NCBI GenBank assembly: GCA_014695345.1 | Contig: JACJOC010000098.1 | Span: 1-64,000, forward strand | Reading direction: 5' to 3' | DNA from: Cyanobacteria bacterium FACHB-471 | Lineage (GTDB): Bacteria > Cyanobacteriota > Cyanobacteriia > Elainellales > Elainellaceae | Length of the DNA stretch: 64,000 nucleotides | Shown here: one piece after another, positions 28,779 through 32,917 of the stretch | How the letters are laid out: each line of letters opens with the position of its first letter | Numbering within the stretch: the first letter of the stretch is position 1 | Position numbers and translations under genes: made by a program | The notes under the pieces: model-generated | Seen by the model: only the letters and a program-made list of their open reading frames with translations | What the model was told of the DNA's origin: nothing | Database searches by the model: none

Positions 28779-29459
28779 ATGAGCTACATCCTCAAAAATC
28801 CTGGAATCGTTTGGAATCTGGTGCTACAGCACCTCCAGATGACGAGTTTGACGTTGGTCATTGCCGTAGCGATCGCCCTCCCCTTAGCGCTGCTGATTAC
28901 CCGCTATCGCTGGCTAAACGTGCCAGTTCTGGGAGTGCTGGGGATTCTCTACACGGTTCCCAGTTTGGCACTGATTATTCTGCTGGTGCCGATTTTTGGA
29001 CTGGACGCACAGTCAGTCATTGCGGCAATGGTGATCTACACACAGGTGATTCTGGTACGAAATCTGGCAGTCGGGCTGCAATCGATTAAGCCAGCCATTT
29101 TAGAAGCAGCCAGAGGCATGGGAATGAGTCCTTGGCAGCGCTGGTGGCGAGTTCAGGTACCGCTGATTTTGCCCATCTTCTTGGCGGGGCTGCGAATTGC
29201 AGCGATCGTAGCGATCGCCATTGCCACCATTGGCGCAAAGTTTGGTGCAGGCGGGTTAGGCACTCTGCTGTTTGACGGAATCAACCAGGCAGGACGCTAC
29301 GACAAAATTTGGGCAGGGGCGATCGCCGTCTCCCTACTCGCCTTCATCATCAATGGTGCATTGCTAGCCCTAGAATGGGCAGCAAATCCCGGTAGACGCA
29401 TTCAACAAACTACTCGTGCTCAAAAGAGACAGTTAGATAAATTGCCCAATCCGAGCTAG
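28779..29459 (+). CDS. Betaine/choline-type ABC transporter permease
   Basis: A 226-residue membrane protein with about six helices. It has the binding-protein-dependent permease loop EAARGMGMSPWQRWWRVQVP near residue 110 and AKFGAGGLGTLLFDGI near residue 157, characteristic of the OpuBB/ProW-like family for quaternary-ammonium solutes. No ATPase or substrate-binding gene is adjacent. A second permease of the same family converges with it. Substrate unknown. Confidence 0.85.
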   Translation: MSYILKNPGIVWNLVLQHLQMTSLTLVIAVAIALPLALLITRYRWLNVPVLGVLGILYTVPSLALIILLVPIFGLDAQSVIAAMVIYTQVILVRNLAVGLQSIKPAILEAARGMGMSPWQRWWRVQVPLILPIFLAGLRIAAIVAIAIATIGAKFGAGGLGTLLFDGINQAGRYDKIWAGAIAVSLLAFIINGALLALEWAANPGRRIQQTTRAQKRQLDKLPNPS

Positions 29460-29534
29460 AGATCCTTCAGGCGAGCACTTGCTGATAAAGGCTGATATTT
29501 TTTGTTCAAATCGCATCTTTGCTTGTGATTCAGC

Positions 29535-30176
29535 TCAACCCGTAGGTGGCTGTAGAAATCTTTGCAATGTTCCTAACCCGATTTCAGCTAATAGTGCCAG
29601 AAGCGCAACTGGGATCGCTCCAACCAACAAAACAGAATTGTCGTAAAGGGCAAATCCTAAGACAATGAAACTTCCTAGCCCGCCTGCTCCAATGAAAGCT
29701 GCAAGGGTGGCGCTAGCAATCACTTCTACGGTTGCCGTCTTGATCCCAGCGATGATCACGGGCAACGCCAGTGGAATCTCGACCAGGCGAAGTACCTGTC
29801 CCGGAGCCATTCCCATGCCGTAAGCAGCTTCTCGGATCATCGGGTCGATGTTACGAAAGGCGACATCGGTGCTAATTAAGATGGGGGGCATGACTAGCAG
29901 GGTAAGAGCGATCGCCGCTGACTGAAAACTCAGCCCAAAATAGGGAATTGCCAGAAATAGAATCGCCAGACTGGGGATCACCCGCAGCGCATTAAAGCCA
30001 TTGATCAGAACCGTGGACGCTGAACGCGATCGCGCGCTCCACAACCCCAGCGGCAAACCCACAATCAGTCCAATCGCCAGCGGCACCAGCACCAGCAAAA
30101 AGTGTTGTCTCAGTGCAGTAATTAACTCGCCTACGTTGGTAGCGGCATATTCGTAAGCCTGAGCAAACACTTCCAC
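29535..30176 (-). CDS. Betaine/choline-type ABC transporter permease
   Basis: A 213-residue, six-helix permease. The loop REAAYGMGMAPGQVLRLVEI is near residue 118 and AFIGAGGLGSFIVLGF near residue 163. It is paralogous to the protein at 28779 (GMGM..P...RL.E.P and GAGGLG in the same order). The start is a GTG. It is downstream of a ribbon-helix-helix gene on the same strand. The pairing suggests that the two permeases assemble together (as in OpuB/OpuC, with two permeases) although they are convergent here. Confidence 0.83.
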   Translation of the reverse strand: MEVFAQAYEYAATNVGELITALRQHFLLVLVPLAIGLIVGLPLGLWSARSRSASTVLINGFNALRVIPSLAILFLAIPYFGLSFQSAAIALTLLVMPPILISTDVAFRNIDPMIREAAYGMGMAPGQVLRLVEIPLALPVIIAGIKTATVEVIASATLAAFIGAGGLGSFIVLGFALYDNSVLLVGAIPVALLALLAEIGLGTLQRFLQPPTG

Positions 30177-30727: not shown

Positions 30728-31201
30728 ATGCATACTCTCAATCGAATTTTGGAGCAAAAAGTTTTAGAGGCAGATGGCAGTTACCTTGATGCTCAAGGGC
30801 TCCAACCCCTAGAGCACTATCTTCAAAGCTATACAACTCGCCTGGAAACTTATCAGTACTTACGTGACCAAAACCAAAAGCTGGTTTTACAAGCACTGCG
30901 AAAACTAGCCCAAGTTTATCCAGAACTGATTCAGAAACATGGGCAGCGCTGTCAATACGACATGACAGAAGTTCTTCGTTATGTTGCTCTATCAATCTTA
31001 CGGGACGATGAAATTTTCTTTAAAGAGCAGATGATGTCCTGGTTGGACACCATTCTCGTGGCCCACAAGAAAAATGCTCAATGTATGGTGGCCTATCGTT
31101 ACCTTCAAGAAGCGATTCACACCAACTTACCCGCTATAAGCAGTAGCTTGGTTCGCCCCTACTTAGAGAGCGTCATTACCTCTCTCCAATCTCACGCTTA
31201 A
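30728..31201 (+). CDS. Phycobiliprotein-like (globin-fold phycobilisome) protein
   Basis: The 157-residue, all-helical protein has the size of an allophycocyanin subunit. The segment CQYDMTEVLRYVALSILRDD (about residues 77-96) aligns in register with phycobiliproteins (C-x-x-D-x5-RY...I..xD): the chromophore Cys and the Asp three residues on are conserved, while the usual Arg between them is Tyr. The N-terminus (MHTLNRILEQKVLEADG) resembles the start of the family. Whether it binds bilin is unknown. It precedes a linker-like gene by 80 bases on the same strand; the pair lies outside any phycobilisome operon. Alternative: a phycobilisome-associated chaperone-like relative. Confidence 0.75.
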   Translation: MHTLNRILEQKVLEADGSYLDAQGLQPLEHYLQSYTTRLETYQYLRDQNQKLVLQALRKLAQVYPELIQKHGQRCQYDMTEVLRYVALSILRDDEIFFKEQMMSWLDTILVAHKKNAQCMVAYRYLQEAIHTNLPAISSSLVRPYLESVITSLQSHA

Positions 31202-31281
31202 ATTTACGCTTTCCTAACCACACCTGCGATCTTCAGCCATTCCATTCAACCCTAAACGCAATCAATGGAGCGGTCTTTCGT

Positions 31282-32007
31282 ATGGAAAATGTTACCCCAG
31301 TTACAGTTAGTCGCCATTCTCCAGTTGAAGAACGGCAATCTGCGCTGCATCAGATTTATCAACAAGTTCTCGAACGACAGCCCTACAGTTTCGAGCGAAG
31401 AAGTCTGGCGCAAGCAGAGAAAAACTTTCTCACCGATAAGATTGGAGTACGGCGATTTCTTAAAGAATTAGGTCAGTCTGAAGCTTATCTCAAAGCGTTT
31501 TATTTTAATTGCTCTAACCTAAAATTCCTGGATTGGTGCTTTAAGCATTTCATGGGTCGCGCACCGTTTGACCAGACGGAGATTGAACTTTATAGCAACA
31601 TCTTGCTAAAGCAAGGAGTAAAACAAATCATTATAGCCCTGCTCGATTCGGAAGAATATCGCAAGGCGTTTGGCTGTTTTACCGTTCCCTATCCCCGGCA
31701 GCAAAAGCAGTACGAATCTCCCAAGGCATATCTGGAGTCGAGTCTGCTGAATCATGAATATTTTGGGCAACGGGGCTGGGTTGTACCAACGCTTTACTGG
31801 CGACAGTTGGGGCTGAATTGTGACGCTGGAGTATGCCGACACCCAGAAGTTGATGAGTCACATATACCCGTTTCCTCAACTGCGGAAATGCTACAAGCAG
31901 AGCTACTATCACTGCTACGCACAATGGATGTCGCTCAAGCGAAACAGATTATTGGCTCTCTGTCACCCCAGCAACGAGAACTACTGCGGCGATCGCTGCG
32001 GTCTTAG
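31282..32007 (+). CDS. Phycobilisome linker-domain protein with C-terminal extension
   Basis: The 241-residue protein has one phycobilisome linker domain (residues ~10-140). Landmarks: ALHQIYQQVLERQPY, a phase with ALSQSEAY-like residues (ELGQSEAYLKAFYFNCSNL), WCFKHFMGRAPFDQTEIELYS near residue 90 and LLDSEEYRKAFGCFTVPYPR near residue 120. The FKH-x-x-GRAP spelling is closest to ApcE repeats rather than rod linkers. After residue 140 a family-unlike region has a Cys-rich loop (NCDAGVCRHP) and a helical end (MLQAELLSLLRTMDVAQA). It is the second gene of a pair with a phycobiliprotein-like protein; together they resemble parts of ApcE. Confidence 0.8.
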   Translation: MENVTPVTVSRHSPVEERQSALHQIYQQVLERQPYSFERRSLAQAEKNFLTDKIGVRRFLKELGQSEAYLKAFYFNCSNLKFLDWCFKHFMGRAPFDQTEIELYSNILLKQGVKQIIIALLDSEEYRKAFGCFTVPYPRQQKQYESPKAYLESSLLNHEYFGQRGWVVPTLYWRQLGLNCDAGVCRHPEVDESHIPVSSTAEMLQAELLSLLRTMDVAQAKQIIGSLSPQQRELLRRSLRS

Positions 32008-32043
32008 GACTAATCGCTATAGCCACGCCAATCAAAAGAGACA

Positions 32044-32066
32044 GGGGCAGAACTTGCCACTGCCCC
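32044..32066. terminator. Terminator-like hairpin between convergent genes
   Basis: GGGGCAG (32044-32050) and CTGCCCC (32060-32066) make a 7-base G/C stem with a 9-base loop. It sits about 37 bases after the linker-like gene and 12 bases after the hydrolase gene end on the other strand. T-rich sequence follows on the minus strand (CTGTCTCTTTT), so it is likely bidirectional. Confidence 0.5.
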
Positions 32067-32077
32067 ATTTGCAAAAG

Positions 32078-32917
32078 CTACGAAGGGGCTGTGGACAGTA
32101 CAGCCGTAGAGCCTTCTGGACTCATAGAACGGCTGTCCTCCATAAAATTGCGGTCTTGCATCAGTTGATACAAATTGATGTCTGACTCCAGCAGACAGGC
32201 ATGACCGCTATTAGGCAAAATCAGAACCCTCGCATTGGGTAGGTGTTGCGCCAATAGCTGTACTTCTGAGGCAGAAGGCAGAAGGCGATCGCGCCGACTG
32301 CCAATCAGCAAAACAGGCTGTTTTAGCTGCTTTAACTGATTGGCAGTAACCCTGAACTCGCGTAAGAGCGACAGCCGCCAAATAGACGCCTGCTGGGGAA
32401 CTGATAGCATTGCTTCAATCAGGGCACGGCGATCGCCTGCCTCAATTTGCCCCAACGACGACAGAAACGGCAGCAACCCATAGCAGGACAAATCGTATAG
32501 AGGCTCTGGCAGCCATTGAGTAACCAGCGAGCCCCATTGCATCCAGGGGCGACGGGCAAAAGAAGAGGCAGGGTTAACTAGAATAAGTCGATGAAACAAT
32601 TGGGGCGATCGCAACGCTACTTTCATTGCCAGACAGCCACCAAACGATTCTCCACAGAGGTAAATAGGGCGATGATGCTCACCCTCCAGCTCTGTCCGAA
32701 TTAGCGCCACAACCTGTTCGGCAAGCTGATCCCAGCCCGTCATGTCGGTTGGGGGAATCGCCAAGCAGCGAATATCAAAGGTGGGTTCCAAGCCTTCGGT
32801 CTGCACACGCAGCAGTTCACCCGTGCCATCTAAACCGGGAAGGAAAACAAACAAAGGCGCTTCAGGTTTAGTTTTGCGAGGAGTGCGGAAATAAACCTGA
32901 CGAGGAATTGCTGACAT
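32078..32917 (-). CDS. Alpha/beta hydrolase (phytyl-ester-synthase-type N-terminal half)
   Basis: A 279-residue hydrolase with FVFLPGLDGTGELLRVQTE near residue 23, IRCLAIPPTDMTGWD, the nucleophile elbow YLCGESFGGCLAMKVAL near residue 92 and VNPASSFARRPW near residue 118. His is in NSGHACLLESD near residue 238. FxPGLDGTG, (D/E)SFGGCLA and NPA(S/T)SF match the hydrolase half of plant phytyl-ester synthases (PES1/2). It follows the acyltransferase gene by one base and is probably co-translated with it. Confidence 0.75.
   Translation of the reverse strand: MSAIPRQVYFRTPRKTKPEAPLFVFLPGLDGTGELLRVQTEGLEPTFDIRCLAIPPTDMTGWDQLAEQVVALIRTELEGEHHRPIYLCGESFGGCLAMKVALRSPQLFHRLILVNPASSFARRPWMQWGSLVTQWLPEPLYDLSCYGLLPFLSSLGQIEAGDRRALIEAMLSVPQQASIWRLSLLREFRVTANQLKQLKQPVLLIGSRRDRLLPSASEVQLLAQHLPNARVLILPNSGHACLLESDINLYQLMQDRNFMEDSRSMSPEGSTAVLSTAPS

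Follow-up and report, generated by a model that had tools for sequence, protein, structure and literature searches.

The stretch of DNA analyzed here, referred to as the window, comprises 64,000 nucleotides from Cyanobacteria bacterium FACHB-471, and contains two adjacent genes on the forward strand. The first (30728–31201) encodes a divergent phycobilisome-fold globin of 157 amino acids, and the second (31282–32007) a single-domain phycobilisome (PBS) linker protein of 241 amino acids. They are separated by an intergenic gap of 80 bp (31202–31281). Coordinates, reading frames and gap had been given by an earlier sequence-only reading of the window, and all were exact on rechecking. A scan of the + strand of the gap revealed no terminator-like site, and judged from the sequence the two genes are likely to be co-transcribed. 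A scan for sigma-70-like promoters between 30400 and 32120 returned no site and was uninformative. Two ABC-transporter permease-like genes in opposite orientations lie at 28779–30176, and in several relatives, including the linker-only genome G014, homologues of these neighbour the globin or the linker.

The globin, which we assign to a clade D resembling the bilin biosynthesis-associated globins (BBAGs) on the basis of profile, structural comparison and tree, matches PF00502 at 9.4e-20, scoring 71.6 bits where the cut-off is 22.2. With the NCBIfam allophycocyanin and phycocyanin models, whose cut-offs are all at least 228 bits, its scores do not exceed 31. The AlphaFold model (pLDDT 87.8) aligns with allophycocyanin and phycocyanin subunits in Foldseek with TM about 0.76, at an identity of just 12–24%. 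The phycobiliprotein register noted in the sequence-only reading is present as R74-C75-Q76-Y77-D78 at the phycobilin-attachment position (30947–30961), together with Arg84-Tyr85. That reading was also right that Tyr stands where Arg is expected after the Cys, because the light-harvesting relatives have CxRD; the residue replaced corresponds to phycobiliprotein Arg86. Arg74, Cys75, Tyr77, Asp78, Trp105, Cys119 and Tyr123 are invariant in 58 distinct globin sequences, and Arg84-Tyr85 is nearly so. The globin thus departs from the light-harvesting motif in a uniform way: with CxYD in 58/58 sequences, the chromophore Cys and Asp have been kept under constraint while the Arg is always Tyr. Compared by group, the harvesting phycobiliproteins have CxRD, the ApcE domains KSLRD and the Slr0149-type BBAGs often KWKRD, while the window globin has RCxYD. 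The second invariant cysteine, Cys119 (31082–31084; 58/58), falls in a column where the ApcA/B/D/F, CpcA/B and ApcE rows have no Cys, and the loop ahead of the chromophore Cys is shorter than in the harvesting proteins. In phycobiliproteins the Asp of the chromophore motif contacts the bilin nitrogens. A bilin is probably attached to Cys75 of the globin, with Asp78 holding it in place.

Where does this globin belong? The sequence-only reading had suggested a tree with the Apc proteins and the ApcE domains, and the tree that we constructed, comprising ApcA, B, D and F, CpcA and B, ApcE domains and cyanobacterial BBAGs, places it outside the known apc and cpc families. The harvesting phycobiliproteins lie on one side, and the window globin and the BBAGs on the other (SH-aLRT 99 with ApcE included, 100 without), so that the globin is not a member of the clade formed by ApcA/B/D/F, CpcA/B and ApcE. 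Its closest relatives by both tree and alignment score are cyanobacterial BBAGs of the Slr0149 type, which score far above any Apc, Cpc or ApcE protein. It may nest inside the BBAGs or branch between them and the phycobiliproteins, the second arrangement not being rejected (AU p 0.75) in this tree, whose BBAGs are all cyanobacterial. As described in PMC10151467, BBAGs form a branch next to the phycobiliproteins, are globins that self-assemble with bilins and fluoresce weakly (3–7% yield), and have no known function. The window globin is like the cyanobacterial BBAGs in having a phycobilisome fold outside the light-harvesting clade; it is unlike them in its invariant CxYD in place of CxRD (many cyanobacterial BBAGs have KWKRD, without the Cys). 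A further group of orphan globins occurs in six of the loci examined (L022 and L028–L032, e.g. L028:4768–5235 on the + strand), with ~33–42% identity to the window globin and CKRD-type motifs; no PBS linker of the window's family was found within the stretches examined. The window's genome also contains a divergent solitary ApcA paralogue apart from apcAB (L146, G000:C23:254785–255246).

The linker has the PBS linker polypeptide domain and fold. PF00427 matches residues 16–139 (31327–31698) at 2.4e-36, scoring 125 bits where the cut-off is 28.7, and Foldseek aligns the domain with solved PBS linker domains at TMt 0.94–0.95. The ~100 residues that follow form a C-terminal extension (31699–32004) that alignments show to be peculiar to this family, with RGxxxPTxYWHxLGLxCxxGVC followed by predicted helices. 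Searched alone against the PDB, the extension had no sequence relatives at E<=10, and its AlphaFold confidence is low (pLDDT about 47–75). The Cys pair to which the sequence-only reading drew attention is Cys180-x4-Cys185 (31819–31836), with both cysteines present in 49 of 50 linkers; it is predicted to lie on a beta-hairpin (E179-181/E184-186), modelled at low confidence. A tandem version exists in family f36 of G226 and G378, where the PBS domain occurs twice in one open reading frame and a separate Cys-x4-Cys tail follows each copy (L071:4462–5784 and L077:5130–6440).

The linker shares the PF00427 fold with the CpcG/CpcL rod-core linkers and the CpcC-type rod linkers, but differs from them in its own Cys-x4-Cys tail, its separate clade and the absence of a CpcD domain match in the profile search. 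It is not a member of CpcG/CpcL by either tree or family model, scoring only 61–63 bits with the NCBIfam CpcG models against cut-offs of 420 or more. The window-type linker domains form a clade of their own (SH-aLRT 96), joined at 99 by the linkers of G028 and G364, two deep-branching genomes of one genus that we infer to belong to the Thermostichales; these are the only relatives of the family. Topology tests left standing each of the joint branches with ApcE, with CpcG/L and with the rod linkers, and affinity to these three is indistinguishable over the 128 columns of the alignment. The stretch FKHFMGRAPFDQTEI, which the sequence-only reading placed nearest to ApcE repeats, is at linker residues 87–101. 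By pairwise score the linker is indeed nearest to ApcE/CpcN repeats, but the trees give no ApcE placement.

One explanation of the pair offered by the sequence-only reading was a core-membrane linker (ApcE) in split and miniature form. Its alternative, a module for phycobilisome assembly or stress, may still hold. The two domain types combined in ApcE do stand adjacent here, the linker scores highest with the ApcE/CpcN repeats, and forcing the globin together with ApcE is not formally rejected (AU p 0.08). That grouping nevertheless costs 35 log units, the alignment scores of the globin favour the BBAGs by far, and the globin lies outside the harvesting phycobiliproteins, ApcE domains included (SH-aLRT 99), with RCxYD in place of KSLRD. 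In ApcE the phycobiliprotein domain is fused to linker repeats; here there are separate genes for two proteins, a single linker domain, another chromophore site and another position in the tree. Moreover, the window's genome encodes a complete ApcE of about 1,135 amino acids with the normal four linker repeats, for which the pair is thus no substitute. With a full ApcE present and the trees in disagreement, we regard descent from a split ApcE as very improbable, and the least likely of the explanations considered.

How constant is the pairing? The orthologue loci in 20 other genomes have just two genes in common, the globin and the linker, in neighbourhoods that otherwise differ, and in 13 of the 20 genomes the linker is directly 3′ of the globin on the same strand. 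Wherever the two are co-located they are co-directional (51/51 pairs, some of the loci being the same genome obtained twice) and about 0–350 bp apart. Among 386 evenly drawn cyanobacterial genomes (globin at least 161 bits, linker at least 262 bits) the 16 genomes with the globin are the identical 16 with the linker, spanning 12 of 143 genera, and at these cut-offs no genome had only one of the two genes. At a looser cut-off the linker family is confined to the same 16 plus the two Thermostichales-type genomes. Presence or absence of the two genes is concordant in 37 of the 40 nearest relatives. The globin is found without the linker in G001 and G002, which belong to the same genus as the window and are fragmented assemblies, and the linker without the globin in G014. 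Both genes are present on separate contigs in five genomes (G039 of the 16; G030, G011, G005 and G023 of the 40). Chance adjacency or artefact is excluded by the uniform orientation, the matching co-occurrence and the differing flanks. The neighbours in other cyanobacteria, to which the sequence-only reading had looked for evidence of a genuine pair, thus show an association far above chance, and the two genes form one real unit. Named carriers include Leptolyngbyaceae, Oculatella, Stenomitos, Tildeniella, Kaiparowitsia, Roseofilum, Microcoleus, Laspinema and Planktothricoides, which are filamentous and mostly mat-forming or benthic. The hydrolase gene found downstream in the window follows the globin without an intervening linker in G030, in G011 and in two genomes from the genus of the window, with syntenic outer flanks (window 30728–32917 compared with L046, L047, L048 and L049); G030 and G011 have the linker elsewhere in the genome.

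Two other associations were considered and rejected. A tie to phycoerythrin is contradicted by the distribution of CpeB, which just 3 of the 16 carriers have and the window's genome lacks, and a phage or viral origin by viral contigs that have no relatives of either protein.

The pair had been described as standing outside any antenna operon. This is true of the window, but not of three relatives, where the linker lies inside phycocyanin clusters. In G030 (L078, contig C17) the linker gene is surrounded by cpcE, cpcB, pebB, pebA, cpcD and rod linkers, away from the globin. In G011 and G039 (L068 and L080) it shares its direction with the two gene sets that flank it, one of cpcBA, linkers and cpcD, the other a second set of cpcB with cpcE. 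The three contexts may stem from a single relocation or transfer. The cluster of G030 also contains, on the opposite strand, an orphan PF00502 protein (L078, 8709–9335, + strand; 170 bits) whose best NCBIfam match is ApcA at 82 bits against a cut-off of 270.

These contexts bear on whether the globin might be an accessory antenna subunit, a true light-harvesting pigment protein which, in the manner of ApcD, ApcF or ApcE, takes the place of one subunit of allophycocyanin or phycocyanin within a special disc that its linker threads. The phycobiliprotein fold, the retained chromophore Cys and Asp, the LRY segment and the phycocyanin-cluster contexts would all be consistent with such a role. We nonetheless think it rather unlikely, given the position of the globin outside the harvesting phycobiliproteins, the loss of Arg86 and the shortened loop, and the lack of a partner subunit encoded alongside; the BBAGs tested elsewhere, moreover, have quantum yields of 3–7% (PMC10151467).

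A second kind of context is found in G028 and G364. There the sister linker is divergent from an adjoining cluster of Fer2, V4R and two phycobilisome-family globins, which corresponds to the slr0144–slr0149-like BBAG cluster type described by Rockwell et al. (PMC10151467). A deep-branching relative of the linker thus adjoins a BBAG-type cluster, and while the phycocyanin clusters tie the linker to the antenna, this context ties it to the BBAGs. The window pair differs from the BBAGs in having no adjoining V4R or Fe-S genes; the neighbourhood comparison revealed neither these nor pre-PcyA beside the globin–linker pair, which does not share the BBAG gene association. It also differs in having a dedicated PBS linker, of which the accessible text on BBAGs (PMC10151467) makes no mention. 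A separate Slr0149-type globin adjoining a Fer2 gene is present in the window's genome.

The proteins Slr0144–Slr0149 interact mutually and are located at the thylakoid (PMC9880817), and Slr0144–Slr0152 have been implicated in Photosystem II function (PMC9145668). Kinship of the window globin with the Slr0149 type, and the deep-branching linker beside such a cluster, could therefore point to an assembly or repair factor for Photosystem II or chlorophyll–bilin complexes, in which the linker domain would be a mere protein–protein adaptor outside phycobilisomes. Against this, the linker is found inside cpc clusters in three genomes. To our knowledge the PBS linker fold has no role away from phycobiliproteins, and we consider this explanation unlikely.

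We favour a different reading, to which we give a probability of about 0.5: that the pair provides a BBAG-like, probably bilin-binding globin on a dedicated phycobilisome-docking linker, and that it serves in quenching, assembly or sensing and not in bulk light harvesting. A globin from a lineage outside the harvesting phycobiliproteins, near the Slr0149-type BBAGs, would hold a bilin at Cys75/Asp78. The PBS domain of the linker would insert into or cap a phycobiliprotein ring, like other such domains, and its Cys-x4-Cys tail may bind the globin or work as a redox switch. A bilin globin and a ring-docking linker whose tail binds it would therefore constitute a module fixing a weakly fluorescent bilin globin to phycobilisomes. 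Once mounted, the globin would most likely be a local quencher, a sensor or an assembly or repair factor, and less likely bulk antenna. This reading is supported by the co-occurrence and adjacency of the genes, by their links to both antenna and BBAGs, and by the position of the globin outside the phycobiliproteins. It is weakened by the replacement of the CxRD Arg by Tyr, and by the existence of the globin-only and linker-only genomes. More tentatively, as a minority possibility, the pair could be a relic of the ancestral bilin-globin cluster, its BBAG-type globin physically attached to the phycobilisome through a dedicated linker. Bulk antenna subunits and quenchers of the OCP type being the other two, this would be a third way to place a bilin or quenching unit on the antenna.

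Our literature search, from whose scope subscription journals and preprints were largely absent, found no description of an orphan phycobiliprotein paired with a linker. Although each kind of protein is known, the constant pairing of the two seems to be new, as do the CxYD subtype and the Cys-x4-Cys tail. The occurrence of the pair in many filamentous, mat-forming cyanobacteria suggests that their antenna has an accessory part, or a regulator acting on it, that has not been described before, and the pair would mark this unannotated component in their genomes. The stable co-inheritance of a BBAG-like globin with a phycobilisome linker provides a concrete and testable lead, namely that globins of this kind may work within the antenna or act upon it, and the pair may shed light on the first association of linkers with bilin globins. 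If a BBAG-type globin is indeed mounted by its own linker, the pair would be a living link between the BBAGs and the architecture of the phycobilisome.
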